Below are positions 1,929-40,480 of a DNA stretch of 64,000 nucleotides, one piece after another; position 1 is the first letter of the stretch; the number at the start of each line of letters is the position of its first letter. The stretch is from Parietichytrium sp. I65-24A (Eukaryota; Sar; Bigyra; Thraustochytrida; Thraustochytriidae). Made by a program: the position numbers and the translations under genes. The notes beneath the pieces were generated by a model. It saw nothing but the letters and a program-made list of their open reading frames with translations. It did not search any database and was not told the origin of the DNA. The stretch covers positions 124,001 to 188,000 of the forward strand of contig BLSF01000011.1 of NCBI GenBank assembly GCA_012862575.1. The letters run 5' to 3'.

Positions 1929-3269
1929 ATGGGACAAGAGGGTGGCGCGAGAGATGGCCGCAAGTCGAGCGAAAGGCCCGCGCTACTGGAAATTACGGAT
2001 AGGCGGCAGCTTTTGGAGGCGATTTCGACGAGGCGGAAACCGACAACGATCTTGCCTTCGTCAAAGAGCGCCAAGTTTGTGGTGCTTACGGCCATCACGT
2101 TCATATTCACATTAGGGGCGCGGAGATGCTCGGATACGCTGTTCAGCGACCAGCTCGTGAGAATAGGGTTTCCCAACAGAGAGAACTGGAACCCTGTTGG
2201 TCATAATGCGGTAGATCTTAATGTGAGCACTGAAGGAGCACAGACCAGCAGCACAGATATACCCGTCGTCTCCATCCCCGAAAGTATAACAAACTTTCCC
2301 AAGTACAACACGCATAAAAAATACATCTGCGAGAGCCATCCGTATGGTCAACTAAACAACCACGTCCTCGCGCTGCAGGGCGGAATAGCGTTGGCCCGTG
2401 TTTTAAATCGCACCTTCGTTGCGCCACCGGACGTGACCAAGTACTATCGGATAGACCTCCTCGCAAATATAGCTCCGGAGCTTGTCATCCCTTTCAATCC
2501 AAGAATTTGCAAAAATGCCGAGAGAAGTGGGAACCTGACCGATATTTGCTCCAAGTGGGTTGGATGCAACATAATAAAACAACACACTGCGAAACGACTG
2601 AATAAGGTGACGAGCCGCAAGAAGGTCTTGGAGGTCACTGGCTACATTTTGTTTCGTCTGGGCATGTACGCAAATGGTGTCGACGAGCGCCTGGGAGCCA
2701 AGAACTTTTTCCGTCATCTCTTCCCTCAAGAGCCTGTCATGACACTTGCCGAGGAATACATCAATCGAACATTTGGCAATCAGCCATTTGCCGCGGTCCA
2801 CCTCCGCAACCTTGAAGGGGACTGTCCGCGAAAGATGAAGAAGCAGAATCTCAATATCGGCCCGTACTTGTGCAATCCTCACAAAGACTTGTTTTTGGAA
2901 ATTGAGCAAGACGTGACCGGAAGTCAAGACCTTCCTGTGTTCGTCCTTAGCGATCGCCAAGATCTTAAAGCTTTGCATAGTTATGACAACTTTGGCCGCC
3001 TCTATGACGGGAAGTGTGAGGGCGTTTATTGTGCGATGATAGACTTTGAAATCGCAGCTAGAGCGAACTTCTTTTTGGGCACCGTGGTAAGCACAGCCGC
3101 TACCATCATTGGATATCAGCGGGAGTTTCGCCGCCTTCGGCCTGTTGGGAAACATTATCGGACCGTCCTAAGCTGGTCCAGGAATAATGCCCAGAAGAAC
3201 TACACTGGAGGTCACTACTTGCTCACCCACAGGAACCACCTCGAAGAAAGAGACCCTCCTCCTAATTAA
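1929..3269 (+). CDS. O-fucosyltransferase-like type II membrane protein (family member 1)
   Basis: Single-exon gene of 446 residues. The open frame reaches further upstream only through a TTG; the first ATG, at 1929, has a strong context (gaccATGG). A short basic cytosolic tail is followed by a membrane segment at about residues 47-64 with no cleavable signal peptide, giving a type II (Golgi-like) topology. The luminal domain carries the family blocks YGQLNNHV, LNRTFVA, YYRIDLLA, PFAAVHLRNLEGDC, VFVLSDRQ, and IDFEIAARANFFLG followed by VVSTAA, and ends in RDPPPN. An N-terminal NNH motif, a central HLR motif and a C-terminal acidic/STA motif recall the GDP-fucose O-fucosyltransferase fold (PF10250). 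The link is by motif pattern only, and donor and acceptor are unknown. It is convergent with the next paralog and has the shortest stem with it. Confidence 0.7.
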   Translation: MGQEGGARDGRKSSERPALLEITDRRQLLEAISTRRKPTTILPSSKSAKFVVLTAITFIFTLGARRCSDTLFSDQLVRIGFPNRENWNPVGHNAVDLNVSTEGAQTSSTDIPVVSIPESITNFPKYNTHKKYICESHPYGQLNNHVLALQGGIALARVLNRTFVAPPDVTKYYRIDLLANIAPELVIPFNPRICKNAERSGNLTDICSKWVGCNIIKQHTAKRLNKVTSRKKVLEVTGYILFRLGMYANGVDERLGAKNFFRHLFPQEPVMTLAEEYINRTFGNQPFAAVHLRNLEGDCPRKMKKQNLNIGPYLCNPHKDLFLEIEQDVTGSQDLPVFVLSDRQDLKALHSYDNFGRLYDGKCEGVYCAMIDFEIAARANFFLGTVVSTAATIIGYQREFRRLRPVGKHYRTVLSWSRNNAQKNYTGGHYLLTHRNHLEERDPPPN

Positions 3270-3799
3270 TTATCTGGCACATCCGCGATGTTGGATTTCC
3301 CTGCCCTGCTCTGTCCCGAACCTCTAGTGCTTTCCGAAGACTGAATCATACAACACACATTCGCGCCTGCACTCACACAAGTATTAAAAATCGACATTCT
3401 GTATTATGAAAGCTGGTTTCCTTTTCTGTCATTTTGAATTTCCTGTTCGGAAAAGCTTCTTCCGATCAAATAGTAAGAAAGCTGCCTCGAATTTTTCAAC
3501 ATCTGTATTATTAAAAAAGACGAAATCGCCGACGCCCAGCTTTGATCCGTGTCTTGGGAAAGACACCCCCAAAAGCTTGAAGACTCTAATCAAGGAACAA
3601 GAGTTACAGTCGTGGGAATGCAGTCAACATCATCTTCGTCTACGTATTTATTCATTCATCCATCCATCTAAACAAACAAACAAACAAACAACGCAATCAG
3701 GAATAACTACGGTACTTTACAGTTAGGGAGAACAAGACAGAGTTTTTTCGAGTTCAGTGTCGTGGTGGGGCGAGTGACCGTGCAGGCACTTGCGCTTTT
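3270..3799. other. Convergent 3' intergenic region
   Basis: The 530 bp between two convergent paralogs probably hold both 3' UTRs. The stretch is AT-rich, with an (AAAC)n run near 3670-3690. The open frame at 3406-3726 is low complexity and not supported as a gene. Confidence 0.5.
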
Positions 3800-5152
3800 T
3801 TAAAAAGGGGGCGGCTCACGATATGCGATTTTGTCTTTATCAAACAAAAACCAATGGCCCCCGTTATAATTTTTGTATTTTTCTTCCTTCGACCAGCTGA
3901 GGACTGAGCGGTACTGTTTTCCGACAAATCTCTGCCTCCTGAATTTTCGCTGAAAGGCAATTGTGTTGGCCGCAGTGCTCACAACCGTGCCGAGGAAAAA
4001 GTTTGACCTTGCGGCAATCTCAAAATCGATCAAGGCACACTCCGAACCCTCACAAGGGCCATCATACATGTAATCGCCACGGTATGTTTCTAAAATATCT
4101 GGACGCTGTCTATCGCTGAGGACGAATATTGGCATAGAAGTACTGTTCACGACCTCTTGCTCAATGGTCAAGAAAAGTGATTTAGGCGGAACACAGAGCT
4201 CTGGGCCTATGTTGCGGTTTTGTCGCTTTATTCTCTTCAAACAGGACCCCTCCAGGTGGCGCAAGTGCACAGCAGAAAATGGTTTATCGCCAAATGTGCG
4301 CGCGATGTACTCTTGAGCACGACTCACAACAGTCCTTGAAGGGTACAGGTGCCGGTAGAAGTTTGCCGAGGAAGTCTCAGGCGAGTATCCGCTGGCGTAC
4401 AAGGACGCGGTGAATAGGACAGCTCCGTTCACGTTGAGCGTCCTTGTATGCGCAGTAACCTTCCGAATGGTGTCAGCGACGGATGTGTCAAGGTAGTTAC
4501 AGCCAGGTCTTCTTTTGCATTTTGTTTGCAAAAACATGCTTAGACGTGCGCCTTTACAAAGCTTTTCGTTCCAAGGAACAATCAGGCCAGGCGAAATCTT
4601 GGCGAGAATGTCGATCCGAAAGTTTTCTGAAATCGATTTCGTCGCAACGTAGGTGCGATCAAGAAGCTTTGCAAGAAAGATTCCTCCATGCATTGAGACG
4701 AGGTGATTGTTTGTCTGACCATAATCTACAAAGTTGCAAATAACATTCCGCTTCGTAACGAACTCTGTGACGCCTTCTGGAACGGGCAAATCATAACTTG
4801 CAAGTTGGACTTCTGACACTGGAGTTCCATCATCATTTTCGGCATGGGCCCCCTCTGCACCGGCTTTGAAAACCACGTCTGCTCGCCCTACGTGACTAAG
4901 GAGGATAATCACCAGGCACAAGGCAAAACAAGACAAGCCCCAGACTCTGAGGCCAGTCGGGAAAGCGGGATCTGACTTTTTACAGAACTGGGCCATATTT
5001 CTCGGGGAGTCGCGAGAGCACACAAAGTCGCCGTCAGACTGCGGATTCTTCTGAACTTCAAAGCAGCGTTGCTCCTCCTCCTCGTCGTCGCCAAATCCAT
5101 GTTTAAAGTACCTGGCATGCTCACTCCTTTCTGCGTCAAACTTCTTTCCCAT
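3800..5152 (-). CDS. O-fucosyltransferase-like type II membrane protein (family member 2)
   Basis: Single-exon gene of 450 residues, the only family member on the minus strand. The longer open frame begins at GTG, and the first ATG is two codons inside, at 5152 (MGKKFDAER). The cytosolic tail contains a DDEEEEQ patch, and the membrane segment spans about residues 69-88. The luminal domain keeps the family blocks YGQTNNHL, LDRTYVA, FRIDILAK, PFSAVHLRHLEGSC, IFVLSDRQ, and ALIDFEIAARSNFFLG before VVSTAANTIAFQR, and ends in YREPPPF. It differs from the others at GQTNNHL, where they have GRLNNH or GQLNNH. Several luminal cysteines, such as those in CKRRPGC, recur across the family and are likely disulfides. 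The role is inferred: transfer of a sugar, possibly fucose, in the secretory pathway. Confidence 0.7.
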   Translation of the reverse strand: MGKKFDAERSEHARYFKHGFGDDEEEEQRCFEVQKNPQSDGDFVCSRDSPRNMAQFCKKSDPAFPTGLRVWGLSCFALCLVIILLSHVGRADVVFKAGAEGAHAENDDGTPVSEVQLASYDLPVPEGVTEFVTKRNVICNFVDYGQTNNHLVSMHGGIFLAKLLDRTYVATKSISENFRIDILAKISPGLIVPWNEKLCKGARLSMFLQTKCKRRPGCNYLDTSVADTIRKVTAHTRTLNVNGAVLFTASLYASGYSPETSSANFYRHLYPSRTVVSRAQEYIARTFGDKPFSAVHLRHLEGSCLKRIKRQNRNIGPELCVPPKSLFLTIEQEVVNSTSMPIFVLSDRQRPDILETYRGDYMYDGPCEGSECALIDFEIAARSNFFLGTVVSTAANTIAFQRKFRRQRFVGKQYRSVLSWSKEEKYKNYNGGHWFLFDKDKIAYREPPPF

Positions 5153-7829
5153 TTTCACACAAAGTTACTTGGCCAAAACCAACCGAAAACCCAGGGCGTA
5201 GCGAACCTTTCGCGGGTCTGTCTGATAAAAGCTGCCGGCCCGAACGCCTTGGTGCCCCCCTCGTCGACGTGCCCGATGCAGCCGGCCAGAGCAACACCTC
5301 GGTATCTTTCGCAAGTGGAAGGAAGCTCAGTGGCCTGTCACCCCGCGTCCCCTTCGAGACACGTTTTTGAAAGTAACAACGAAGGCAGACTGTCTCACTT
5401 TGGAAACCTGCCTTCCGTGTATGCGGCCCTGCGAGACCAAGCGTCGGCCAAGAATCCACCTCTTCTGTCCTTCAACCCTCTCTAACCCTTGCTGTCTTGA
5501 GAATTGAATTTTGGAGGTGCACAACCTCTTTCGTCTTCAACTCGCGACGCAGCAACGTACAGTAGTACCAGTACTCGTACCCTCCACGGAGCAAAAGTGA
5601 AGTTTTTTAACTAACAACTTGCTGCTTCTCCGGCCACAACTGCCCAACGCCTGCTCCGCCGGTGCTCACAGTCAGTACTGCATCGACATATGTGGAGAGA
5701 GCCTCGCGCGCTTCCTCTAATGCTCTGGCGCTCTAGAGGGAAGAAGGACCAACTTTTACGATTTTGCGATTTTTTTTCGACGCGACTTGCTGGGCTCGAG
5801 ATGTTTACAATTATTCAATTGAGCAATGAGCAATGAGCGGGTTTAGAATTCGTGTGCATGGATGGATGGATGGAGTTAGTTGGGGAGTGGTGAAGAAGTT
5901 CGATGTTGGAGGACGTAAGCTAGCACTCAAGGTGCCATCGCTCCTTGCGCTCTCTCGCAGCAGCGCCAATCGACATGAGACACGCAAAGACAATCGAATT
6001 CATCGCCGCACTCGTCGTTTTTGGTCTGATTGTGCTGCAGTTCCAGTGACCGATTCTTGCAGACGCATCGAATGGAAGAAAAAATGGGTGACAGTGAGTT
6101 CTGGTGAGCCTGTGATATTATAAATTATAGTTTTGCTCCGAGAGTCAAAGCTCCGCTCCATACCCAAAGGCGCCCCTCGTGTTGATGAGAAGCTTGCAGG
6201 CTCGGCTTTTTGGGTTTGATTTGCCATTTTTCACCTTTACATCAAAGGTTGTGTGCACTTGCAAGTAAGAGGGAGAGAGAGCGTACTGCAGACACTTGTT
6301 CACTAATTTGTCATTGAAAGCACCAATCGAAGCCTTTTCGTTCAATAAATTTCGTTTTCGTTTACATCGTTTAGCTTCTGCGACTTTTTCACAATGAAAA
6401 GAAAACAGTAAACCTTTTTAAAAACATTTCTCGATTCCTTGCTGTCCCACACGATCGTCGTCCCCTTCAAACGATTCGATGTGGAGGCCTACCTTTTCCA
6501 TAGCTCCACCTTATGGGACCTGTACATCGCATGCTTTCAGGTTCGGAAGGGAGATTATCGTCCCTAGGGTACTCACTGGGCTTTTACATCGTAACTACTA
6601 GCGAGGTGTTTTTTTATTCTGAGAAACTCCGTTAGCTTATACGGTAGAGGGGACTACGAAGCGTCGCCATAGGTGGAGATAGGGATAACGGTATGACTGC
6701 AGCTGTCAGTTTGTACAGAGCATTGATTTCGCAGGCAATGGAAATGTATTCGTTTGTTGCTGCAAGTGCAAGTTAGTTGTTGGGCCACAGCAAGCGCATC
6801 GACGAAGAAAAATGAGAACTCGAATATTAATTCAGGCGCTGACACGACCGCTCAGAACCAGTACAGCACTTTGCCAGATCGAATTCTGTGCGATGTAAGA
6901 GCTGCGATAACTTTCGTTGGGACACGAATGAATGAGAATCACTCTCAATCAATTTGAAAAAGACAATCATGCTGAGTAGATAGTCAATCTCCTCGTTCCC
7001 AACGAAAGTTATCGCAGCTCTTCTGTGTTTGCTGGAAGTACTTGTACTGAGTACAGTCTCTCGAGCTCTGAAAGAACAAAACACAGGACTGGATTGGTGC
7101 GCCGGTATGTATGAGCCACAGTCCAGGGCGTACTCGATTTGTTCTATTTTCGAGGACAAAAGTAACAGCAAGCTCAACTTTTTGTCAAAGAGATACGAGA
7201 CATTACGAGATGGCTTTTCCACATGAGTCCCAGGGGCGCTACAAACCCTGGCCGGACTCATTGTCGGATCAGAATTCAGAATTTAGCAACCTTGCCAGGA
7301 ACTTCGAATAACGGTTAGCTGCACTACGCTCAGCTGCGGAATCCCTCCTCTATCCCTCTATCCCTCCTTCCCTCTCTGCGAAAGAATCCTCCTCTCTGCT
7401 GGGACCGAGACTGAGACTGAGAGAGAGAGCGCGCGGACTTACTGCTCTGCAAGAGTGTCTCCTCTCAAACAAATCTCAACAAAGTCAATGCAAGATTTAT
7501 AATAGGAGGAGAGTAGAGAGACTCCGACGTCCAACGCACATTACCGAGACGTTAGCTGCACAGTAGTGGGGTCACTCGGGCAACCGCTTGCAGGAGATGG
7601 ATGCAGGAGGCTCTTCAAGATCAAGATCACGCTCGATCTAAGTGGAAGGGCGTGGAGCGCATAGGAGTGCATGATCACATTTGTTGTGAAGACGACCTTT
7701 TGAGAAGAGGGGCTCCAGACTATCAACTATCAGCGGTGCCTGCTCAGCGGCGCGCCGGGTGATCAGGTTGGACACGGACGGCTCTTTGAACTGCGGGGTG
7801 GCGTCTCACCAACTAACTTACCGCAGGGG
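5153..7829. other. Long intergenic region between divergent paralogs
   Basis: No supported gene in 2.7 kb. It holds a GTAC-rich cluster at 5551-5580, the motif CTCACAGTCAGTACT at 5665-5679, a perfect 26-bp inverted repeat (6897-7022), another GTAC cluster at 7036-7056, and purine- or pyrimidine-rich runs around 7330-7450. The promoters of the paralogs starting at 5152 (-) and 7830 (+) must lie here. Confidence 0.5.
6897..7022. repeat. Perfect 26-bp inverted repeat with 74-bp spacer
   Basis: Positions 6897-6922 (AAGAGCTGCGATAACTTTCG then TTGGGA) are the exact reverse complement of 6997-7022, so a transcript could fold into a 26-bp stem with a 74-nt loop. Similarity stops abruptly at both ends. 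I see no flanking target-site duplication and no ORF inside, so it may be a MITE-like remnant, a hairpin RNA source or a fold-back repeat. Confidence 0.85.
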
Positions 7830-9407
7830 ATGCAGACAATAGCGCGTGTGGTCTCGAGTGTATTCAACGCAAAGAGGAGGATGGGAGAGCGCGAGCGTGC
7901 GCCGCTGCAGAACAAAAGCGTTCAAGATGAGCCTGACGAGACCGAGGAGCAGGACCTGGAGGCTTCGGCAGCGGCCAACATTTACCAAGAGTTTCAAGGC
8001 ACGCTGGAGGACGCCACTTCTCGACCTCTAAGGCGCTGGTTCGGATTGGTCACCGTGCTCTTGATGTTGTTCATGGCCTTTGCTCTTGTCGACAAGGCAG
8101 GATTTTCAAATCCTCTCATGAAGCAATCCACAGTCCAGATTCCTCAAAACGATAATGAGACTTCGAACGTTGACTTCGGCCACGAGAGCAGCGCAAACTC
8201 TAACAATGATCCGGGCAATTACGAGGGCAGTGACGGTGCTGGTCCCGCAGACGACGTCAGCGTTAAAGACGCAAGCGACGACAACTCTTACGCGGACGCG
8301 GGCGAAGACATCGATAATTATGAAAACAATAGTAACGACGGCCCAATCGACCAAATGGTTCAGTATCCTGAAGACGTCAACGTGGACGAGGAAGAGGTTC
8401 CCGTAGTGCCAATGCCGCAGGGGGTGAGTACTTTCATTATCCGTGACAAAGTGATCTGTCAAGGAAAGGCCTACGGCAGGCTGAACAATCATATCATTTC
8501 TACGCATGGTGCACTTGGCCTTGCCTACCTGACGAACCGGACCTTTATTGCACCAGAAGATATGTCGTACTATTACAGAATCGACATCCTGGCGAAAATA
8601 TTGCCCGGATTGATTGCTCCTTGGGATAAAAAGCTGTGTGCAGGGGCAAGGATGTCTTCACAGGTCACAAAGACATGTAAGACCTGGATTGGCTGCGATC
8701 TTTCCAATCCCGCGATTGCAAATAAGGTACGAAAGTCCACCTCGAAGATCACGAACCTCAAGGTGGAAGGTGCTGTTCTCTTCAGGCTATCACTCTATGC
8801 CGGTGCGCTTGATGCCCGTTTAAGCTCTGGTGGGTTCTATCGACATCTTTATCCAATCGAGTCGATTCTCACTCGCGCAAACGAATTTATTGAGAAGGCG
8901 TACGGCAATCGCCCTTTCGCAGCGGTTCATTTGCGTGATCTAGAAAGCTCTTGCCTCAAGCGCATTGACCGTCAGAATGCTGGCATCGGCAAGGAATTGT
9001 GCAGCCCACCTAAAGACATCTTCTTGGAAGTCGAGCAAGACGTTACTGGCCAGAACGAATTGCCTGTATTCGTGCTGAGCGACAGGCAGCGAATGGATGT
9101 GCTTAAAACATATGAAAACTTCGGGTTGCTATACGACGGTCCGTGCGCTGGAACCGAGTGCGCGCTAATAGATTTCGAAATTGCTGCGCAAGCGAATTTT
9201 TTCCTCGGCGTGGTGGTGAGCACCGCATCGAACACAATCGCATATCAACGAGAGTTTCGAAGAAGTCGGCCGGTCGGCACGCAGTATCGCTCGATATTGA
9301 GCTGGTCTCGCGTGGAAAGCGAGAAAGACTACAAGGGCGGGCACTGGCTGCTGTTCAATAAGCACAGTCAAGTGCGTCGTGATCCCCCGCCACGTCTTTT
9401 GTTGTAG
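7830..9407 (+). CDS. O-fucosyltransferase-like type II membrane protein (family member 3)
   Basis: Single-exon gene of 525 residues. The first ATG is at 7830; an internal ATG at 7881 (MGERERAPL) aligns with the start of member 4 and may be the true start. The cytosolic tail contains IYQEFQG (about residues 51-57), shared with member 4, and is followed by a membrane segment at about 70-87. A long acidic, Asn/Asp/Gly-rich stem (about 105-190) leads to the luminal domain with YGRLNNHI, LTNRTFIA, YYRIDILAK, PFAAVHLRDLESSC, VFVLSDRQ, and ALIDFEIAAQANFFLG before VVVSTASNTIAYQR. It ends near RRDPPPR. An AATAAA lies about 35 bp past the stop. Function is inferred from a resemblance to O-fucosyltransferases. 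Confidence 0.7.
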   Translation: MQTIARVVSSVFNAKRRMGERERAPLQNKSVQDEPDETEEQDLEASAAANIYQEFQGTLEDATSRPLRRWFGLVTVLLMLFMAFALVDKAGFSNPLMKQSTVQIPQNDNETSNVDFGHESSANSNNDPGNYEGSDGAGPADDVSVKDASDDNSYADAGEDIDNYENNSNDGPIDQMVQYPEDVNVDEEEVPVVPMPQGVSTFIIRDKVICQGKAYGRLNNHIISTHGALGLAYLTNRTFIAPEDMSYYYRIDILAKILPGLIAPWDKKLCAGARMSSQVTKTCKTWIGCDLSNPAIANKVRKSTSKITNLKVEGAVLFRLSLYAGALDARLSSGGFYRHLYPIESILTRANEFIEKAYGNRPFAAVHLRDLESSCLKRIDRQNAGIGKELCSPPKDIFLEVEQDVTGQNELPVFVLSDRQRMDVLKTYENFGLLYDGPCAGTECALIDFEIAAQANFFLGVVVSTASNTIAYQREFRRSRPVGTQYRSILSWSRVESEKDYKGGHWLLFNKHSQVRRDPPPRLLL

Positions 9408-9713
9408 TTCCCAAGACAATTGCAGATGAATTTTTAAAACAAAATAAAACTACGGCCTTGATCTCCTGAACCAACTATTCTTTTACCCAAGTTCAATTGA
9501 TTGAACAAAAAAGCCAAAGAGGCATGAATTTCCTTGTATCTGAACCTATTGGCTGGAACCCGCCAAGAAACGTGTCCTATGAACATCCCATTCACCATCA
9601 CACGATCAAACACGCTGTAAAGATGTGAGGTAGACTGTCGAGAAGACTTTTCGATCCTTTGAATCACGGCGACGGCGATGGTGATGTTCGTGTTCATTGT
9701 CCAATGTGAAAGT

Positions 9714-9782
9714 TTCGATTCAAATCGATTCGATTCGATGCGGTTCGATTCCTTCGATTCGATTCGATTCGATTCGATGCAA
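9714..9782. repeat. ATTCG/CGAAT microsatellite
   Basis: An imperfect pentanucleotide run made of repeated GATTC/CGATT units, with a few GATGCGG-type interruptions. It reads as low-complexity SNR-rich peptide on the minus strand, which produces a spurious open frame. Confidence 0.9.
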
Positions 9783-10344
9783 TTATGGTTCACACTTCAA
9801 ATGAAATTCCTGTGACCGCCACGCACATTGTTTCGGTGGCTTTGCGTTTACCGGAGACGGCGTTTCAGGAGGAGCATAGTCCCGCATCACTGTAATGATA
9901 TCTAATATTATCAATACTAGACAAGCTTGATACTGCGCCGTACCCGATAGTATGTGCACGCAAACCTAGCGATGAGACATCGAATTGAGCCGAGAGATGC
10001 CGAGAGCTGCGTCACATACCAATTCCACAAAGCGAAGCTTCTTGTCTCGTTGTTTGAGATGTGTCAATCACTGATGGCAACATCGATCCGAAACGAACAA
10101 CTTATGAGAACTACCCAGTACTCAGTACCCACTGTCAGTACCGGTCCTCAGCAGAGCGCAGTTAAAACATAAATACATAAATGCAACGAAAGGTGAAATG
10201 CAACTGTTTCAGCTGCGACGCGACCGCGCGCAATTAATTCAGGACCCGGCGCACGCTCCCTCACATTCCGTCGTGATCGGCAAGGGCTGAACTGGCTGAA
10301 CGCTGCTGCAGTGAAGCGCCAGATACTCAGTACTCACTGTACGT

Positions 10345-10364
10345 ACTCACAGTCAGTACTGAGT
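10345..10364. repeat. GTAC/CAGT-rich dispersed motif copy
   Basis: ACTCACAGTCAGTACTGAGT is one of the longest copies of a motif that recurs in the intergenic DNA. The core CTCACAGTCAGTAC also occurs at 5665, and a version with one extra CAGT occurs at 21801-21820. Related GTAC clusters lie at 5551, 7036, 10111, 21901 and 22081. None lies inside an annotated coding region. Confidence 0.7.
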
Positions 10365-10965
10365 GCGCAGCCGCGCGTCAGCCATGGGTTGCGTGTTGTT
10401 GCCATGTGTTGCCACATGCTCGCTCTGCCTCGCCCTGCCTCTCAATCAAGTTGACTGGAGCACTAGCTAGGCTAGAGCTCGTAATTCACCATGAGTAGCT
10501 GCGAAAACCAATAAATGAAATGCACGATGTCATCACACAACACATCACGTGGCTGTCTACCGATAGTGCTAGAAGGGCATTTTATTCACTTTGTTCCTTC
10601 CTCGACGGGTACGCCGATATAGCGCGGCACTAGTACATTCAGCCGTATCGATGCTAGTGGTAGGGCTAGTGCACACCGCTCGGTCGGGGAGATTCAAGTT
10701 CGACAGGAAGGCACCCGACTTGTCTGACTGAACTCTGCAAAGTGAAAGTTGATACAAGAAGCTGAGACTGCGTGTCTGAGTGCAACGCATTACAAATGAC
10801 AGTGAACAAATGTACGCGCGCTTGGAGTCGTTGGTGGTGGAGATGGTGGAGAGAGACTCGGCCTCTGAGAGATCGACTCTCGTTGAGCTGACTGACTGTA
10901 AATTCTCGTTCGGAGCTTCGAAGTACGGAGCAGAACTGAATAAAGCCGCCCAACTCACATTTTAA

Positions 10966-10975
10966 TATATAAAAG
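10966..10975 (+). promoter_or_regulatory. Candidate TATA box
   Basis: TATATAAAAG is a close match to a eukaryotic TATA element. The nearest long gene on this strand (start 12290) is 1.3 kb away, so either a long or spliced 5' UTR is involved or the match is fortuitous. Confidence 0.3.
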
Positions 10976-11793
10976 GACCTCTGGAGGGTCGCAAAAACGA
11001 TGCGGAGAACGGCGAGAACGGGAGCACTCCTTGCTCCTTGCTCCTTTCTCCTCGGCCATCGCCAACATCAATCGGCGGTCGAGAGGAAAGAGAGGAAAGA
11101 GAGAAAGCTAGCTGGGCTGAACGAAACAACTCTACAGCGCGCAAGTGGCCCCTCGCTAACCTCCACCACACACTCCCTGTCTCTCTTTCTCTCTATTTGC
11201 TTTGAGTCTCTTGACTCTCTTGACTTTTGACTGTGAATCTGTGCACGCTTTTCACGCTCTCTTTCTTTCCTTCTCTTTTTTGTCTTTTCGGACCGAGTAA
11301 TCGACAATAACTACCTTGCGTATGTTGGTGGTGACGCAGTGGAGAGCTTATGCGTAGGCTTAGACGCAGGCGTAGGCTACGACCAAGGGATGCGTGAAGA
11401 GATGAGAGAGAAAACGAGATCGCCAATGGGCCACCCGGTCCGCGAAGAAACGCACCACGCCCTCCACATTTTTCACATGCTCTTCACCGCAAAGAGTAGT
11501 ATTGTGTTACTACAGGCGGCAATAGTGCATCGTAGCTCTTGACAGTCTGTGAGTTGATTTTCTGATTTACTGTTATAAGAGATCGTTCTAACGTAAATCA
11601 TCTCAAATTGAAATAGTGATCAACTTCGCAGAGCTCCTGGCTGTGCCACAGTGAGCTGAGCTTCCTACGTACTTATCTGCAATCTGAAATAATTTGTTCT
11701 GAACTTGTTAATTTTGACAAATTCAAAATTCAAGAAACAAATGAATTTGAATCGCTATGTTTAGGTTGTCTATTTATAGTTGACGCCACAACT

Positions 11794-11892
11794 CTCAGCA
11801 CTCAGCACTCAGCTCTCTCATTACCCAGCCTCAGCACTTGCATCGTTAGCACCCAGCTACCACATCGCAACTTTCGAGTGCTGAGTGCTGAG
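11794..11892. repeat. 17-bp perfect inverted repeat with 65-bp spacer
   Basis: CTCAGCACTCAGCACTC at 11794-11810 is the exact reverse complement of 11876-11892. The arms are themselves short tandem repeats (CAGCACT), and the spacer carries a further CTCAGCACT. It could form a cruciform or RNA hairpin upstream of family member 4. Confidence 0.8.
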
Positions 11893-12289
11893 TGCAAAGT
11901 TCTGAGGGTAGAGTCTCCTCTAGCGCTAGACTCTGTTGAGACTCTGAGAGAGATTTTGCTTTTTGATCAATCAATCAAAGACTGAAGTGGGCTCGGTGGG
12001 AGAAGGTAAGTAGCCAGAGTAACAACGCTGGACTGTGGTTGTTGTTGGAGCGAGGAGGAATCTGTCTCAAGTCTCTCGAGACGCTCAAAACTCTCAAAAC
12101 TGGGGACCTTCGGAGGAGCACAGCTCGCGGTGAACAAGACTCGGAGGGCGACGAGGACGGGCGGAGCTGAGGTGCTGGGACGGGTTGTTGATTGTTAAGG
12201 GCGCGCTGGGAAGATCTTGGAGCCGGCCGAGGAGGTGTTTGTTCAAAGGTGCACGGTGCGAGGGCGCCAAAGTGCGCGGAGACAGCGAG

Positions 12290-13909
12290 ATGCTGGACGA
12301 TGAACGAGAACGGGCGCCATTGAAGAGCAAGTTCTCCACAGATGGGCCTGCTGAGAATGCGTCGTCGTCTTCTCCGAGGGAGAGGCAGGAGTCGTTCTCG
12401 GAAGCGCTTAGCATATATCAGGAGTTTCAAGGCGATTTCCGCAAATCAAGGCCCATGCCAATCCTGCGCTGCGTGGCGCTAGCAGTGCTGCTTCTTATCA
12501 TGTGGACTGCAGTTGCGTTCACAGATACCAGCGATGCAGCCAATTCGCAGGTGACTGTGAGTCTGGGCTCTAACGCTTCTGCTGACATTAACGACCCGAG
12601 CGGAAGCGAGGTCGAGCTCTCGACTTCGACAGAGGTGTCCACAGACTTTCACGATGGAGATCAAGACGAGGGCATTTCCGATAGCGAGAATGGAGCTGCC
12701 GAAGACGACGAGTCGGACGCATACGATGAAACTGGAGACGACGATGATGATGATGATGATGATGACGAAAGTAGTGCTGCTGCGGCAGAGGGTACTGACG
12801 ACAACGACGGCAGTGGGGACGATGGCGAAGAGTCGTACGAGGACGAGGAGGAAATCCTCTCTGCCCCGGACGCGAACGGCTCAGAGGAGTTAAGTGGAAC
12901 TGAAGAGATTCCAATTATGCCGATGCCCAAAGGCTTGACCGACTTTCAGATCAAAGACAAGGTGCTTTGCCAAGGACGGCCTTACGGAAGACTTAACAAT
13001 CACATCATCTCTACGTACGGCGCGATTGCGCTTGCTCATTTTCTTAATCGGACCTACATCGCGTCTGAGGACATTACGAAATTCTTTCGGGTCGATATTC
13101 TGGCAGAAATGCTACCGGGGACCATTGCCCCGTACGACCCAGAGAGGTGCCGTGACGCTAGATCCTCCAGAGAATTGATTAAACTGTGCCAGCCAAGACA
13201 AGGCTGCGGGCTGTTGCAACCTAAAGCGGCAAACATCATTTTACAATCAACCAAGCACATACCCGTGCTGAAAGCCGACGGAGTCATCTCTTTCTGGACG
13301 TCTCAGTCCGCAGGAGGTCTGGATAAACGCCTTCTCCCAACCAACTTTTACCGGCATTTGTACCCGAACGATTTCATAAGAGCCAGCGCGAAAGACTTTA
13401 TCCAAAGAAAGTTTGGAGATAAGCCTTTTGCAGCCGTGCATCTACGTGACCTCGAGGGATCGTGCACGGCACGTATAAAGAGAAAGCATCACGGGATCGG
13501 CAAAGAGCTTTGCAGCCCAAAGAAGAAGGTGTTTCTTGAGGTGGAGAGAGACATTACTGGAAAAGACGACCTCCCAATTTTTGTCTTGAGTGACAGGCAA
13601 AAGCTCGACGCTCTTCGGTCCTACGACGGGTCTGGGATCATGTATGATGGGCCGTGCAAGCATACACTCTGTGCGCTTATTGATTTTGAAATCGCAGCCC
13701 ACTCGAACTTTTTTGTTGGAGTTGTCGTGAGTACCGCTGCCAATACGATCGCGTACCAACGAGAATTTCGGAGGAGCCAAACCAACGGCGAGTACTTTCA
13801 CTCAGTGTTAAGCTGGTCGCGGAAAGAGAAAACCAAGACTTACGGGAACGACTGGCTTATGTTCGGCAAGTATATGACCAATACTTCCGCACCCAGTATT
13901 TCACCGTAA
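12290..13909 (+). CDS. O-fucosyltransferase-like type II membrane protein (family member 4)
   Basis: Single-exon gene of 539 residues. The open frame runs 105 bp further upstream but only from a TTG; the ATG at 12290 gives MLDDERERAPLKSKF, which aligns with the internal Met of member 3. The tail contains SIYQEFQGDF, and the membrane segment is at about residues 58-78. The stem, to about residue 205, is very acidic and includes an uninterrupted run of nine or more Asp. The luminal blocks are YGRLNNHI, LNRTYIA, FFRVDILAE, PFAAVHLRDLEGSC, IFVLSDRQ, and ALIDFEIAAHSNFFVG before VVVSTAANTIAYQR. It lacks the conserved RDPxP end seen in the other members and stops at SAPSISP. Function is inferred: a secretory-pathway sugar transferase. 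Confidence 0.7.
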   Translation: MLDDERERAPLKSKFSTDGPAENASSSSPRERQESFSEALSIYQEFQGDFRKSRPMPILRCVALAVLLLIMWTAVAFTDTSDAANSQVTVSLGSNASADINDPSGSEVELSTSTEVSTDFHDGDQDEGISDSENGAAEDDESDAYDETGDDDDDDDDDDESSAAAAEGTDDNDGSGDDGEESYEDEEEILSAPDANGSEELSGTEEIPIMPMPKGLTDFQIKDKVLCQGRPYGRLNNHIISTYGAIALAHFLNRTYIASEDITKFFRVDILAEMLPGTIAPYDPERCRDARSSRELIKLCQPRQGCGLLQPKAANIILQSTKHIPVLKADGVISFWTSQSAGGLDKRLLPTNFYRHLYPNDFIRASAKDFIQRKFGDKPFAAVHLRDLEGSCTARIKRKHHGIGKELCSPKKKVFLEVERDITGKDDLPIFVLSDRQKLDALRSYDGSGIMYDGPCKHTLCALIDFEIAAHSNFFVGVVVSTAANTIAYQREFRRSQTNGEYFHSVLSWSRKEKTKTYGNDWLMFGKYMTNTSAPSISP

Positions 13910-14941
13910 ATCCAAAGCCAAGCCGAAGCCAAGCCTGTAGACATATTTGATGAACTTGACATTTTAAAATTATCTTTGAAACCACCAAGCTTTTTAATTT
14001 GTTGGTTGAAGTTTTGGACACATTGTGTAAAGTTTGAGGAATAAGCTTTCCAAACAAGTAAATGTAGAATTATGCTTTTTCTTGAACCCGAGGCTACTCT
14101 TTCGAGGGGGTAGTGACCAGAGTTCGTCACAACAAGAGCATTATGCCTCAGGCGAGGCTAAACTTTGTTGGTGCCCGCAAAATCAAAACAATGGCCCAAG
14201 TGATCTTACTTTTCGGGCATCTCTGTACACCGCACACGCAGTTCTCATGCAGTCGCTAAGGCTTGGCCTTGGTTGGCTCAATCGACTCAGACTCGGAAAC
14301 TTGAACTGTGACGCCACAACAGACCAACAGACCAGATCATAACAAACGAGACTGTACTGTTACTATATATGGCCTCAGGTGATCTCAGGTGTACTTCAAG
14401 TGCGAGCCATTCCAACTTGTGAACGTTCGCAACATTGAGTATATTCGGCGTCCGCTCATAGCGTGTGGCAATAATCTTGCGGGACATCTCGCTATCCTAC
14501 TAGTCTTACTGTTGTAGATATCTGTTCCAAACCTTTGGGACTCGCAAGTTGCAGGAAAGCTTTTGCATTTGTCGAGCCACATTCATTACTCGCAGGCGTA
14601 GGATGGCGTAGGGGTACATCATGCATTCCGTTCAAAAAAGACCAAGCCTTGAGAATCGGCCCGAAGGCAAAGTGAGCTCTTGAGGGCTAGTGCTAGAACA
14701 GCAAGTACGATGTGCCCCCCAATTGCGAGAATCGCATGCGATGTGCTTGTGACGATCGTTCCACCAGCGTAGTGTTAAAGAAGCAGCACTCCAAACAACA
14801 AATCAGTCGGAGCGCGAGGCAAGTCAACTTAGCGTCTTTGGGATACAACACCAAGAGCTTGAAGAGCTTGGAGGATTGGAGGATTGGAGGCTCGGCGGAC
14901 GCTGACGAGCTTGTTTGCGGTCGGCAAGCGGGACTGGGGCG
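13910..14941. other. Intergenic region
   Basis: About 1 kb between co-directional paralogs. It has an AT-rich 3' UTR-like start and a TATATAT run at about 14363-14369. No supported gene or conserved repeat is seen. Confidence 0.4.
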
Positions 14942-16309
14942 ATGGAGAAGGAGAAGGAGTTTGACTGCGAATCGCTCTGCAGCGAGAAGAGTGAACAGGA
15001 CGCGGAAGCTCTGCAGTCGAGCGATGGGGCTTTGTACAAAGAATACGAATTCAAATTTGATGACTCGGCGACAAAAAGGCGGATCCGCTTCGCGATTCTC
15101 GCCGGAGCTACACTGCTTCTTGGATTGCTGGTTACAGCGGTTGCCAGATCAGAGAACTCTGGCGAACCAATAGTCATTCTTCAAAAGGCATTGGCGGTCA
15201 TTGGAGCCGGGGACTATTTCTACTCCGGGGATAGAGACGGTGACGACGACGCTGCGATTGATGGTTTTGTGGCCTTTCCAAGCGGCGAAGGCGGTGCCGA
15301 CGACGATGTCCCGGTTGTGGAAATACCACAAGGTGGGGGGGCCTACACGATAAGGTCCAAATTACTTTGCCCGGGAGGTGGCTATGGAAGGCTGAACAAT
15401 CACATCATCACAACGAGGGGAGGAATTGCTCTGGCATACGCCCTTAACAGGACCTTCGTTGCGACTTCTGACATGACCAAGTACTATAGAATCGACCTTT
15501 TGGCCAAAGCTTTTCCGGGCCTCATCATCCCACACAGCAAGCGTTGTGAGCCCTCCAAGAATATAGCAGGCATTGATAAGCGGTGTTCTGGACCTTTGGG
15601 GTGCAATATCACAGATCCTGACCTACTAGCGCATGTCGTGGCCGCCACGAGAAACATTCCGGTCTACAAGATGCACAGCGCTGCCCTGTTTCGATTAAAC
15701 ATATATGCTGCAAGGCTAGATGAGAGTCTCTCTGTTGCACATTTTTACGGCAATTTATTTCCAGCCCCGTTCATCATGAAACGAGTTGATGATTTTGTAG
15801 CGAAGAATTTTGGGGATCGGCCATATGCAGCTGTGCATCTTCGTAATCTCGAGGGTTCTTGCATCAAACGCATTGTCGCGAAGAACGGAGGCATCGGGAA
15901 GGAACTCTGCAGCCCGCCCAGGACCATCTTTCGGCAGATCGAGAAGGAGATAACTGGCAAGAACGGTCTGCCAGTATTTGTGTTGAGCGATCGGCAAAAG
16001 AAGGGTCCACTGGCGACCTACAAGAGCTCCGGTAAATTCTATCATGGGCGCTGTAAAGATGTGGAATGCGCTCTCATCGACTTTGAAATTGCTGCTCGAG
16101 CCAATTTTTTCGTTGGAGTGGTCGTCAGCACCGCATCAAACACTATCGCGTATCAGCGTCAATTCAGAAGATTGAGGCCTGTTGGTTTTCAGTACCGATC
16201 AGTTTTGAGCTGGTCGCGATCAAATAAGGAGAAGAATTATACGAAAGGACACTGGATGCTGAGCAACGATCAGCTCGTGAATTCTAGAGACCCGGCTCCC
16301 CGTCTCTGA
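14942..16309 (+). CDS. O-fucosyltransferase-like type II membrane protein (family member 5)
   Basis: Single-exon gene of 455 residues. The frame opens upstream only at a TTG, so the start is the ATG at 14942 (MEKEKEFDCESL); the DCESL block recurs just after the start of member 6. The membrane segment is at about residues 49-68, followed by a short acidic stem (DGDDDA, GADDDVPVVEIP). The luminal domain carries YGRLNNHI, LNRTFVA, YYRIDLLAK, PYAAVHLRNLEGSC, VFVLSDRQ, and ALIDFEIAARANFFVG before VVVSTASNTIAYQR, and ends in SRDPAPRL. A Gly-rich run (PQGGGA, PGGGYG) sits where the others have fewer glycines. The donor sugar and substrate cannot be read from sequence alone. Confidence 0.7.
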   Translation: MEKEKEFDCESLCSEKSEQDAEALQSSDGALYKEYEFKFDDSATKRRIRFAILAGATLLLGLLVTAVARSENSGEPIVILQKALAVIGAGDYFYSGDRDGDDDAAIDGFVAFPSGEGGADDDVPVVEIPQGGGAYTIRSKLLCPGGGYGRLNNHIITTRGGIALAYALNRTFVATSDMTKYYRIDLLAKAFPGLIIPHSKRCEPSKNIAGIDKRCSGPLGCNITDPDLLAHVVAATRNIPVYKMHSAALFRLNIYAARLDESLSVAHFYGNLFPAPFIMKRVDDFVAKNFGDRPYAAVHLRNLEGSCIKRIVAKNGGIGKELCSPPRTIFRQIEKEITGKNGLPVFVLSDRQKKGPLATYKSSGKFYHGRCKDVECALIDFEIAARANFFVGVVVSTASNTIAYQRQFRRLRPVGFQYRSVLSWSRSNKEKNYTKGHWMLSNDQLVNSRDPAPRL

Positions 16310-17235
16310 CGCACGACACTCATGGGCCCTAATTCGGACCATGATCCTTTGTTTCGCAGACAATATACATTCGCTGTGCACTTGGCTGTCGCTCGGCGGT
16401 GCTGACTTCTATTCGACCGTCTCGACACTGGAACCTGTATTTCATCCCATGTCAATAACAAGTAGTAAATATCGTGTTTCATTTCACTGTCAAATCAGAG
16501 CGCCATGCAGCAATTCAATTGCTTGGGCTGGCCCAAAAAAGATAGCTTTGTTTTCTTAAATTTTAGAGACATGTGCAAGGAAACGAACACTTTTCTATCT
16601 GCCCCACCCTACCTACGCCTCTCTCTTCACCGAGATGATTGTGCTAGCAAGACCTGTTGCGCATTCTTTTGTCACGCTCATGTTCGCATGTTCCTCGGGA
16701 AGCCGTCTGTGGTGGTGCACATGTGGGTGGTGCGCTTTCCTATTCACTCTTGCTTTCATACCACTTGAAGATCAAACTGAAATCGAGTCACTTGCCATTA
16801 AAAGAGCAAAGAAGAGACCTTCAACTGCTCAAGTCAGTGAGCGCGGAGAAGAGAAGAGAGAACAGCCAAACTCGGCTTCTTTCGGCCACTGCTCGCAGTA
16901 TTGTGTGCATCCCTGCATACATTCGGTGTTTGCACGCCGGCGCTAACATCATCTAATATTTAAGAATAGTAGTCTTCAGATCCTATATTCGATGTCCAAA
17001 TGGAACCGACGCGACATGACCCTTTGCGACTCTGCGACCCTGCGGCAGTGGCAAGTTACGGATAAGCTTACAACTTACAAAAGTCTCCGAGTCGGTTGAG
17101 TGGATGGAAGGGTTTCTCTTTGTCTCTACTCATCAGAAGTACACCCCACCTTCCAATAGGGTTTGCATGCGTGTGGACTGGTGAAACGCCAAGCGTTGGG
17201 AACGTGTCGTAGATGAGCAGACAGACACCCAACCA
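16310..17235. other. Intergenic region
   Basis: The 926 bp between members 5 and 6 contain several overlapping small frames on the plus strand (16505-16956) without recognisable motifs, and I see no repeat. It probably contains a 3' UTR and the member 6 promoter. Confidence 0.4.
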
Positions 17236-18867
17236 ATGTGGTTGCCAGGACACTTGGTTAGCGCCTTCGAATCAGGAGGGATGAAGGGTACTGATTGCGA
17301 ATCTCTCGTTGGTGAACAGGAATGTTTGCACACGGAAGACCTCACGTCGAGCGACGGAAATGTGTCGTGCAAAGAACGCAAGTTCACATCTTGTGATGCG
17401 TCCGCAAGGAATACAATGCGCTTCGTAGTATGGGCAGCAGCAGCTCTGTTCGCCGGATTTATCATGGTGACAAGAGACGCAGAAACAACCAGCTCATCCA
17501 AGTTCTTTCTTTCCAAGACATTGGACGCCATTAATGGCCCTGATGTGGGTGAACCAGGAATTTTTAATACATCAGCGGGAGGAACGGAAGCCCAGGTTGC
17601 ATATTTCGACGAGCAAGACGACAACATGGAAGCGGTGGAAGATGCGGGAGGCTCTGATGTCGCTCCTTTAAACGATGAAGCGGAAGACGATGCAACTTAT
17701 TTCACTGATGAAGAGTCCGAATCGGAGAACGACAATGACGGAGGCTCAGATGTCAAAATTGACGCCCCCAGCGAAGGGCAAGATGTTGGAGGACAAATTG
17801 ACGAGGCGGAAGACGATGCAATTGAAGACTCTGTTAACTTTCCAAGTGTTGTCGACAACGACGACGTGCCCGTTGTGCGAATGCCGGAAGGTGTGAAAGA
17901 ATATCAAGTTCGCCCAAAACTCCTATGCCCAAGGGGAACTTATGGCAGACTGAACAATCACATTGTTTCGACGAGAGGTGGGATCGCGCTGGCATACGCG
18001 CTCAATAGAACATTTGTTGCCTCAAAAGACATGACACACCATTACAGAATCGACATCCTGGCCCAGGCTTTCCCCGGCCTCATCATTCCGTACGACTCGA
18101 GGTGCTCACAAGGCCACTCCGTCCCAGAAATCGACAACCGTTGCGCAAAAAAAAATGGATGCAAGGTTATGAGAGAAGGTGTCATAGACAAGATCAGGTC
18201 CATGACGAACAAATTTCGCATACTCCGAGTGAATAGCGCGGCATTGTTTCACGTTGAACTGTACGCCGTCGGAATCGATGAGAGTCTCTCGGTCGCAAAC
18301 TTTTATGGCAACCTGTATGCAAGCTCTTATATCATGGAGCGCGTCGACGAGTACATCAATCAGACTTTTGGAGATAAGCCATTCGCAGCAGTGCATCTCC
18401 GAGACCTCGAGGGATCGTGTGTCAGGCGGATGGTCAAGAAGAATGGAGGATTCGGGAAGGACCTCTGCAACCCGCCCAAGAAAGTATTCAAGTACATTGA
18501 GAAAAAAGTTACTGGGCAAAATGATCTGCCCGTATTTGTGCTCAGCGACATGCAAAAGAAGGAACCCCTGGAAACTTACAAAGGCTTTGGAAACTTCTAC
18601 CGTGGCGATTGCCATGGCGTGAACTGTGCTCTAATCGACTTTGAGATTGCCGCTCGCTCCAATTTTTTTCTTGGTGTAATCGTAAGTACCGCCGCAACAA
18701 CTATCGCGTATCAGCGCCAATTCAGAAGATTGCGCCCGATCGGCATTCAGTATCGATCTGTCTTGAGTTGGAGGAAAAACCTCGACCAGGCCAATAATTC
18801 CACCAACTCGCGCTCAATGGGGAGAAAGAACAGGCTACGTTCCATGGACCCAATGCCCCGGCTCTGA
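17236..18867 (+). CDS. O-fucosyltransferase-like type II membrane protein (family member 6)
   Basis: Single-exon gene of 543 residues. The first ATG is at 17236; the ATG at 17281 (MKGTDCESL) aligns better with member 5. The membrane segment is at about residues 61-79. The stem of about 130 residues is acidic and contains an imperfect internal duplication (EAEDDAT.., EAEDDAI.., GGSDV twice). The luminal blocks are YGRLNNHI, LNRTFVA, YRIDILAQ, PFAAVHLRDLEGSC, and ALIDFEIAARSNFFLG before VIVSTAATTIAYQR, ending in SMDPMPRL. It is the only member with VFVLSDMQ instead of VFVLSDRQ, so if that Arg is functional this copy may have altered activity. The region before the C-terminus (NLDQANNSTNSRSMG) is divergent. 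Confidence 0.7.
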   Translation: MWLPGHLVSAFESGGMKGTDCESLVGEQECLHTEDLTSSDGNVSCKERKFTSCDASARNTMRFVVWAAAALFAGFIMVTRDAETTSSSKFFLSKTLDAINGPDVGEPGIFNTSAGGTEAQVAYFDEQDDNMEAVEDAGGSDVAPLNDEAEDDATYFTDEESESENDNDGGSDVKIDAPSEGQDVGGQIDEAEDDAIEDSVNFPSVVDNDDVPVVRMPEGVKEYQVRPKLLCPRGTYGRLNNHIVSTRGGIALAYALNRTFVASKDMTHHYRIDILAQAFPGLIIPYDSRCSQGHSVPEIDNRCAKKNGCKVMREGVIDKIRSMTNKFRILRVNSAALFHVELYAVGIDESLSVANFYGNLYASSYIMERVDEYINQTFGDKPFAAVHLRDLEGSCVRRMVKKNGGFGKDLCNPPKKVFKYIEKKVTGQNDLPVFVLSDMQKKEPLETYKGFGNFYRGDCHGVNCALIDFEIAARSNFFLGVIVSTAATTIAYQRQFRRLRPIGIQYRSVLSWRKNLDQANNSTNSRSMGRKNRLRSMDPMPRL

Positions 18868-22852: not shown

Positions 22853-24934
22853 ATGCCTTCGCGCAGCAGGACGCCGGAGCCAAAGCGTCGCAGGAAGCCA
22901 TTGCAAGAGGAGCTGGACGCGGAGGAGGAGGAGACTCAAGATGTGCGTTCTGAAGAAGTGGCCGCCGGAGTAGATGGCCAGGAGGATGTCGCAGAGGAGA
23001 AATCGGCCAAGGCTGCGGTGACGGTGGTGGAGAAGGCCGTGGTGGTGGAGACGAAGACTGTGGTGGTGGAGAAGGAGGTGAGCGCGGGCGGCGAGAAGCT
23101 TGCGCGAAAGATGCAGGAGCCCACGCCGGGGAATATTCAAGAAGAAGGGTTCATTGATGCGTTTTACCAGCCGAGATCGTTTTCGGCTCTCCTGCTGCTT
23201 GTGGTTCTCATTGTGTTTCTGACCATCTATCGGGAAGATACTTTTGTAAGTTTGGGACACGGGGAGGCTGGTTTTTGATTGGCCTTGCTTTGATGTTAGT
23301 ACGCTCGCGCGATGATCGGAATCTAACTTTCGATACTTACTCGTTCTTTCTCAGCTGGGCTGGATTCAAAGCTCTGTTGACACCCCTTCCAATACGACAT
23401 TGTGCGAACCTGCTTGCGCAGACTGCGAGAATTGTGGCCAGGCATGCGGAGACAGCAACAGGATTAAAGCGGGAATTCTCCTTGCATCAGTGTCATTTCT
23501 CTTGTACTGCGGCATCCAGCTCCGGGACTCTCATTTGCTACGCCCACACCCTGCTGTCTGGAGAGTGGTGCATGGGGCCGGACTTTTGTACTTCATCTTG
23601 CTCGTATATCTGTTGTGCCAGGACTACAGCGGAGTGGTCAATTTCCTCAAGCTCTTCGATCCGAGAGCAGGCATGCACGAAAAAGAGAAAGACTACGGGT
23701 CGGATTGCCGTCTCTATGTGCCAAACTCGCCCGACCCATGGAAGAACCTCAAACATCAAGTGTATGATCGCTTTGTAATCGCACACTTTCTTGGATGGAC
23801 CTTGAAGGCTCTCATTCTGCGCGATTGGGGATTGATGTAAGTTTCGCTCCACATGCCATGACTTGTTGGTGTATTTATTTTACCGTAGAGTTAATAGGTA
23901 TTCTGACCTCTCTCCCCTCTTCCCCTTGATGCGTGTAATATAGGTGGGTTGCTTCTGTGCTCTTCGAGATCCTAGAGATTTCGTTTCAGCACATGTGGCC
24001 AAACTTTAACGAGTGCTACTGGGACCACCTCATTCTGGATATATTTGGTTGCAACTTTGGAGGCATGTGCTTTGGTATGTACCTGGTGAAATTTCTTGGA
24101 ACGCATCACTTTGACTGGACCGGAAACAGAATCGACTCCATCATTAGCCCAATCGGCAAGATGAAGAGAGTTGCGCTTCAGTTCACCCCGTACGATTTTG
24201 AGACCTACCGGTGGCAAGTGTTCTCGACTTGGCGGCATGCGGTGATCGGCTTTTCTGTTCTTTTCATACTCATGCTCGGAGAGCTCAACGCCTTCTTCTT
24301 GAAATCGACCTTCAAGATCCCGATTGACAGTGACATCAATCTCTACCGTCTGTGTTTCTGGGTTCTTATGACCTACATGTCAATCTTCGAGTTTCATCAC
24401 TTTGCAGCCGGAAAGAGTCGCAGGGTCGGTGTGAACAGTTGGTTAGCTGGCTCACTGGTGAGCCTTGAGTTTCTTCTGGTCGCCAAGCACATTCACTCGC
24501 AAAGTCTCTTTTCCTTTGAGGAACTCAAGCCTCGTTTCTACATTACCGCCGGATGGCAAGCTACTGGCGTAGTCTTCACGCTCTTGTGCCTCACCAAAGC
24601 CCTCCGAAGAATTGTTCTGTGGTGGGGCGGTGCCGAAGAAGTGGTTCCTCCGTCATCCAGAGCGCCACCACAAGACAAGACCCTTCAGCCTTCCCTCAAG
24701 CCACGGTCCGTATCCTTCAACTCGATTGATGATGACGTTCGTCCATACGTTCGAGCGGGAATGTTCTTAAACCAGGTGTTTCAGTTCCTCACCTACGCTC
24801 TTCCAGTGCCTCTCATGGTTGTTTTGGTTATCGACTGCTTTAGGACCGTCAACCATCCAACTCCTCGCCCAGACGACACTGAGTGGCACAAATATCTGCT
24901 CGGAAATCTTACCCAGCTTCCCTCGTGGAGCTAG
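22853..24934 (+). CDS. Phosphatidylserine synthase, base-exchange type (PSS/PTDSS family)
   Basis: Three exons: 22853-23245, 23355-23836 and 23944-24934, coding 621 residues. Both introns (109 and 107 bp) begin GTAAGTTT and end in AG, and splicing restores the frame exactly. The product is a polytopic ER membrane enzyme that would swap the head group of phosphatidylcholine or phosphatidylethanolamine for serine. The diagnostic block spans the second splice junction: LRDWGLM, then WPNFNECYWDH, then LDIFGCNFGGMCFGM, close to animal and plant PTDSS1-type enzymes. The N-terminal 100 residues are cytosolic, basic then Glu/Val-rich (repeated VVVE), followed by several hydrophobic helices and a LRDWG-preceding HFLGW segment. 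The start is the first ATG (MPSRSRTPEPKRRR) after a pyrimidine-rich leader. An AATAAA lies at about 25068. Confidence 0.9.
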
Positions 24935-40465: not shown

Positions 40466-40480
40466 CAACTGAAGTGAGGG

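Follow-up and report, generated by a model that had tools for sequence, protein, structure and literature searches.

Six neighboring genes in a stretch of 64,000 nucleotides from the thraustochytrid Parietichytrium sp. I65-24A (contig BLSF01000011.1, positions 124,001 to 188,000; hereafter the window, in which all coordinates are counted) encode divergent relatives of O-fucosyltransferases. We consider it likely, with a probability of about 0.7, that the six are locally duplicated paralogues encoding type II membrane glycosyltransferases of the GT-B fold, which belong to the POFUT/FUT8/NodZ superfamily, use a sugar linked to guanosine diphosphate (GDP) and invert its configuration on transfer. 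Judged by sequence profiles and a predicted model, the nearest solved structure to their luminal domains is POFUT1. We see the array as a gene-family expansion of an ordinary sort within a superfamily already known, and the pocket of its proteins has genuinely changed.

Sequence profiles and predicted fold

In Pfam searches (maximum E of 10, HMMER filters on), all six proteins match PF10250 (E 1.8e-7 to 0.019). The protein of gene 1 reaches the gathering score of the family (31.5 bits versus 31.5) and aligns to positions 1–325 of the 326 in the profile. Among the matches listed, those to other Pfam families have E of 0.08 or weaker, so there is no clear hit to another enzyme class. The six luminal domains were also combined into a profile (tails and anchors removed, stems mostly so). 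Searched against 177,635 distinct PDB sequences, it finds POFUT1 of C. elegans first (3zy2; E 2.5e-7, 33.2 bits) and two constructs of human POFUT2 next (E 0.061 and 0.066); up to E 10 it has a single other match, to a nuclease that is unrelated (E 0.4). A full-length profile likewise finds POFUT1 first (4.9e-6), then POFUT2 (0.17 and 0.18) and six unrelated proteins (0.22–0.82). The likeness to PF10250, described in an earlier note on this DNA as only at motif level, is thus closer than that. Searches of NCBIfam and PHROGs profiles returned nothing above noise (best E of 0.052 and 0.24, respectively).

The predicted structure of the luminal domain of gene 3 (8397–9404) agrees with this placement. 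The best of five AlphaFold models has a mean predicted local distance difference test score (pLDDT) of 76.0 and a predicted template modeling score (pTM) of 0.79. Compared with the PDB by Foldseek, it has 71 matches at E ≤0.001, and all of the best 50 are fucosyltransferases, namely POFUT1, POFUT2, NodZ, AtFUT1 and FUT8. C. elegans POFUT1 (CePOFUT1) holds ranks 1–6, with a best E of 5.7e-9, a query template modeling score (TMq) of 0.52–0.59 and a root-mean-square deviation (rmsd) of 5.5–9.3 Å. Among the matches listed, the best E is 8.5e-7 for NodZ, 1.5e-5 for AtFUT1 and 4.3e-5 for FUT8. The earlier note had allowed for a fold unrelated to GT-B; the model of gene 3 has the GT-B fold of fucosyltransferases. 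In a library of viral structures, 14 matches have E ≤0.001, and giant-virus proteins named O-fucosyltransferase are near the top: one from Clandestinovirus, with E 1.6e-9 and TMq 0.54, and others from a cedratvirus and a Megaviridae sample. Across the 14 matches identity is just 8–16%, and we read these matches as a shared fold, not as viral origin. A chance resemblance of motifs was also considered and is rejected in view of the PF10250 matches, the match of the PDB profile search to POFUT1 and the modeled fold.

In the CAZy classification, POFUT1 is in family GT65, POFUT2 in GT68, and FUT8/NodZ and AtFUT1 in GT23 and GT37; GT106 also belongs to the PF10250 superfamily. The array proteins share with POFUT1 (3zy2–3zy6) the GT-B fold (as modeled for gene 3), GxxxN and HLR motifs, SD and VST loops and a block like KExCSP. 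Unlike POFUT1, they have a predicted anchor and stem, a shorter sugar loop and six copies, and they lack a tail of the RDEF type. POFUT2 (4ap5/4ap6/5foe) resembles them in fold and in the segment AIID....FFIG..VST, which aligns with ALIDFEIA...FFLG..VST including an invariant Asp; it differs in its weaker profile score and in the Phe after VST, which is Ala in the array proteins. FUT8/NodZ and AtFUT1 are in the same Foldseek fold family as the model of gene 3, but their best E are weaker than that of POFUT1 and their Pfam families are absent among the Pfam matches listed.

The donor pocket and competing readings

The blocks reported in the earlier note recur in every member of the array: YG(R/Q)xNNH, HLR(D/N/H)LE, FVLSD and FFxGxxVSTA are each present in all six proteins. 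In a six-frame scan of the window, YGxxNNH, HLRxLE, FVLSD and IDFEIAA occur six times each, once per gene, and VSTA, just four residues long, has six additional occurrences. Contacts in the pocket of CePOFUT1, as given in passages of PMC3180450, were transferred to these blocks through HMMER alignments. Their numbering was counted by hand (3zy2 chain position plus 21) and agrees by letter at R40, N43, H238, R240, W245, F261, S308, D309, D334, S355, T356 and F357; Asp234, a backbone contact in that source, lands on Phe and was excluded from the count. Among the ten side-chain contacts considered (R40, N43, H238, R240, F261, D309, D334, S355, T356 and F357), six are identical in all six genes (N43, H238, R240, D309, S355 and T356). 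S308 also aligns to an invariant residue. A KE(L/I)CSP block is common to POFUT1 and genes 3, 4 and 5. In the worm enzyme, changing R240 abolished activity and the N43 Ala mutant lost 25-fold (PMC3180450); Asn43 is described as a proton shuttle (PMC8631701).

From these residues we infer how the enzymes would work. Each protein is predicted to run from a cytosolic tail through a single hydrophobic anchor and a variable stem to a luminal catalytic domain of two Rossmann halves, between which a GDP-linked sugar, most likely GDP-L-fucose, would bind. The beta-phosphate would be held by the HLR Arg, which is invariant, together with Ser-Thr of the VSTA block, and guanine by the invariant His and the LSD loop. 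The invariant Asn of GxxN would carry the acceptor proton to the leaving phosphate, giving an inverting transfer. Conservation of the phosphate and guanine residues argues for a GDP-sugar donor. Around the sugar, the pocket has changed. The spacing from HLR to CxP is 22 residues in the six genes versus 41 in CePOFUT1 (counted by hand for the latter), and F261 is without an aligned aromatic or conserved counterpart. D334 is without an aligned conserved counterpart in the luminal-profile alignment, and a nearby invariant Asp aligns with an Asp of POFUT2. With the sugar loop shortened and Phe357 and Trp245 replaced, epidermal growth factor (EGF) domains are probably not the acceptors of the six, and the altered loop argues against assuming the acceptor of POFUT1. 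The acceptors are plausibly surface or secreted glycans and possibly differ among paralogues.

Several observations weigh against this reading. Five of the six proteins score under the PF10250 gathering cut-off (15.0–23.4 bits). Searched singly against the PDB with phmmer, the protein of gene 1 has no match up to E 10 and that of gene 3 finds POFUT1 at E 0.05 only, so the relation to POFUT1, as judged from the two of six genes tried, is remote. The other four models of gene 3 are poor (mean pLDDT of 59.6, 58.5, 55.8 and 43.5), and rmsd of 5.5–10.4 Å among the best 50 of its 71 Foldseek matches make the placement of domains in the model uncertain. Foldseek also scores amino-acid letters, which makes the evidence from fold partly dependent on sequence. 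The best model of gene 6 is poor as well (pLDDT 51.4, with residues 152–334 under 50). Its six matches at E ≤0.001 are all CePOFUT1 (TMq 0.27–0.35), POFUT1 chains hold ranks 1–19 and 47 of the 50 matches listed are fucosyltransferases; by itself, this predicted structure is too weak to count. In the pocket, the position of R40 is Arg in four genes and Gln in genes 1 and 2, that of F357 is Ala in all six, and W245 is not kept, with no Trp between HLR and CxP in any of the proteins. The N-terminal motif alignment that holds R40 and N43 scores only ∼3 bits, and these two assignments lean less on score than on motif and order. Worm F357A bound GDP ∼77-fold worse (dissociation constant of 26.9 versus 0.35 µM; PMC3180450). 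The same mutant showed only a "slight decrease" of hydrolase activity (PMC3180450), so an Ala at this position need not be fatal. Finally, because GT106 includes enzymes that use rhamnose linked to uridine diphosphate (UDP), the superfamily does not fix the donor.

This last point bears on a reading in which enzymes of the same superfamily use another donor, UDP-L-rhamnose, as some GT106 members do, or GDP-L-galactose, in the synthesis of wall polysaccharide. The Ala at F357, the loss of W245, the Gln at R40 in two genes and the shortened spacing all touch the donor and sugar pocket, and GT106 rhamnosyltransferases have been assayed with UDP-rhamnose (PMC7343896). This plant family (RRT rhamnosyltransferases), likened here by description, also has many paralogues (34 in Arabidopsis) and Golgi members that make wall polysaccharide; UDP-rhamnose is the donor of its characterized members (PMC7343896). 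We nevertheless regard another donor as unlikely, as all six genes retain the guanine and phosphate contacts H238, D309, S355, T356 and R240 and the nearest solved structure is that of a GDP-fucose enzyme. No UDP enzyme is among the best 50 of the 71 Foldseek matches of gene 3; no GT106 structure is named there either, which makes this comparison one-sided.

It is very improbable that the six are true orthologues of POFUT1, that is, enzymes of the endoplasmic reticulum (ER) that O-fucosylate EGF-like repeats, even though POFUT1 is the top match by sequence and fold, genes 3, 4 and 5 have KE(L/I)CSP and the pair N43/R240 is in all six. The ER retention tail of POFUT1 is RDEF (PMC3180450), and none of the six C-termini has a tail like RDEF or KDEL. 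The predicted membrane anchor and stem, the loss of W245, F261 and F357 and the presence of six diverged copies also argue against orthology. Replacement in all six genes of F357, which serves GDP binding in CePOFUT1, and of W245, described as critical for activity in the worm (PMC3180450), could instead suggest paralogues that have lost catalysis or act like lectins, binding glycans or nucleotide but transferring no sugar. We give this little credence, because R240 and N43 are the same in all six copies while 42–56% of luminal positions differ between copies and because worm F357A kept most of its hydrolase activity (PMC3180450). A GDP-sugar-using, inverting transferase is the reading that we favor.

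The array and its surroundings

The array spans 1929–18867 and consists of six complete open reading frames (ORFs) from ATG to stop that encode 446–543 amino acids. Gene 1 (1929–3269, plus strand, 446 amino acids) encodes a POFUT1-like, predicted type II membrane glycosyltransferase with a weak hydrophobic segment and has the strongest PF10250 match (E 1.8e-7). The others are of the same family: gene 2 (3800–5152, minus strand, 450 amino acids; E 1.7e-4, under the cut-off), gene 3 (7830–9407, plus, 525 amino acids; E 4.3e-4), gene 4 (12290–13909, plus, 539 amino acids, with a long acidic stem; E 5.5e-5), gene 5 (14942–16309, plus, 455 amino acids, pairing with gene 6; E 0.0022) and gene 6 (17236–18867, plus, 543 amino acids; E 0.019). 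By eye comparison of the proteins, an ATG at 7881 may be an alternative start of gene 3, matching the start of gene 4, and an ATG at 17281 may be one for gene 6, matching the start of gene 5. Each gene finds the other five by tblastn in the window (E ≤1e-3), with main pieces at E 5e-97 to 1e-146. The same searches with all six genes reveal no seventh copy in the window, and the sole overhang beyond the genes is a piece that starts 27 bases before the ATG of gene 5. The claim of six single-exon paralogs in 17 kb therefore stands as to six intact, related ORFs; the basis for "single-exon" is that the ORFs are uninterrupted, and the description needs correction as to strand, which is minus for the second gene and plus for the other five.

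Membrane topology was predicted with a hydropathy scan (19-residue window, Kyte-Doolittle threshold of 1.6). Windows above the threshold begin at amino acids 47–78 in five proteins; in that of gene 1, the segment at 46–64 is weak (peak of 1.46). A hydrophobic window that begins within residues 46–78, a stem and the lack of a KDEL-like tail suggest that the six are type II Golgi proteins. From the hydrophobic segment to NNH, stems are 59–160 residues long. That of gene 4 is strongly acidic, with 52 Asp/Glu versus 5 Lys/Arg, whereas genes 1 (8 versus 7) and 2 (10 versus 4) are not strongly so; of the acidic stems of very different length described earlier, the length holds for the array and the acidity only in part. 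In the luminal domain, eight cysteines are invariant across the six, and five proteins have an NRT sequon within an LNRT motif, where gene 2 has LDRT.

Luminal domains are 44.5–58.4% identical over 329–337 aligned residues (all 15 pairs). Differences rise from the second to the first to the third codon position in 15 of 15 pairs, and fourfold sites are close to saturation (0.58–0.82 different), as expected for old paralogues under constraint at the protein level. Pseudogenes are rejected in view of the six intact ORFs and the ordered differences among codon positions. In a tree of luminal domains, genes 5 and 6 group with support of 100/100 and genes 1 and 2 with 89/90 (not starred). Both pairs are adjacent genes, as local duplication would produce. 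The tree does not resolve genes 3 and 4 as a pair, though the parts of their proteins that precede the luminal domain (tail, anchor and stem taken together) match best among all pairs (E 4e-18). Those of genes 5 and 6 match at E 2e-10, and four more pairs match at E 1e-6 to ∼0.013, with composition correction off, such that acidic bias may inflate these four. The region of gene 1 matches none of the other five. The stems, regarded earlier as unrelated, are hence not all so.

The window has other repeats and genes. At its left edge, upstream of gene 1, 1–86 and 206–291 form a direct repeat (87% identical). Two copies at 49006–51353 and 53132–55502 are 91.0% identical over 2388 columns, and each has an open frame of 611 amino acids (stop to stop) with a FAD_binding_4 domain. 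Next to these copies are weaker repeats (51807/55729, 52702/56838 and 52898/57127) with offsets of 3.9–4.2 kb, suggesting a tandem unit of ∼4.1 kb. A 127-bp unit occurs in three tandem copies (94–96% alike) at 40477–40861, just downstream of an open frame with DUF5578 (PF17741), and repeats at 25161–25532 encode, on the minus strand, the C-terminal tail of a myosin-head protein, which is rich in Glu and Asp. The window also encodes a WD40/EF-hand protein, which, like the DUF5578 protein, we take to be associated with flagella. A phosphatidylserine synthase-like gene (22853–24934; PF03034 on its last open frame) has apparent GT-AG introns, as seen by eye, which point to a nuclear genome with spliceosomal introns; long uninterrupted ORFs are present elsewhere in the window. 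Taken together, the introns, the long ORFs and the two flagella-associated proteins suggest a flagellate protist. Open frames at 33243–36458 (1071 amino acids) and 30672–31688 (338 amino acids) have no Pfam match up to E 0.01 and 0.001, respectively, and Rfam and ARAGORN scans of the window gave no matches.

Relatives and a possible role in the wall

Scans of contig collections found no relatives of the six. In viral contigs, none of 36 pattern matches to the full-length alignment and none of 38 to the core (HLR through VSTA with flanking residues) were confirmed by tblastn, nor were any of 15 matches to the luminal alignment in genome contigs. These collections cover viruses and prokaryotes, and absence from them says little about eukaryotes; the same subfamily may already be annotated in eukaryotic databases. 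Searches of open-access literature found nothing on O-fucosyltransferases or fucosyltransferases in thraustochytrids or Labyrinthulomycetes, on PF10250 in protists, or on L-galactose in thraustochytrid cell walls or scales. Within Labyrinthulomycetes, wall fucose is described for aplanochytrids and labyrinthulids, and wall galactose and xylose for thraustochytrids (PMC11642839), and fucose is listed among matrix sugars (PMC12221091).

On circumstantial grounds, from what is reported of fucose-containing polymers in labyrinthulomycetes and brown algae, a role of the array enzymes in the wall or in scales, as suggested in the earlier note, is possible. A more specific proposal, which we hold as doubtful, is that they descend from an ancestor resembling POFUT1, have had their donor and sugar pocket reshaped and work as a Golgi set to build a protist wall or scale polysaccharide containing fucose or another L-sugar, each paralogue making another linkage. 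If so, the six would be candidates for fucan-type synthases, the exact nature of which is described as still unknown in brown algae (PMC11468063). Against this, the brown algal candidates are of other glycosyltransferase families, GT10, GT23, GT41 and GT74, and the main text of that source names neither GT65 nor PF10250 (PMC11468063).

If the six are not enzymes of surface glycans, the array would be an ordinary lineage-specific expansion of glycosyltransferases. If they are, the array would be a possible source of enzymes for polysaccharides containing fucose, whose transferases are described as not yet identified in brown algae (PMC11468063), and would provide six natural variants of one catalytic domain from which to learn how donor and acceptor change in the POFUT fold.

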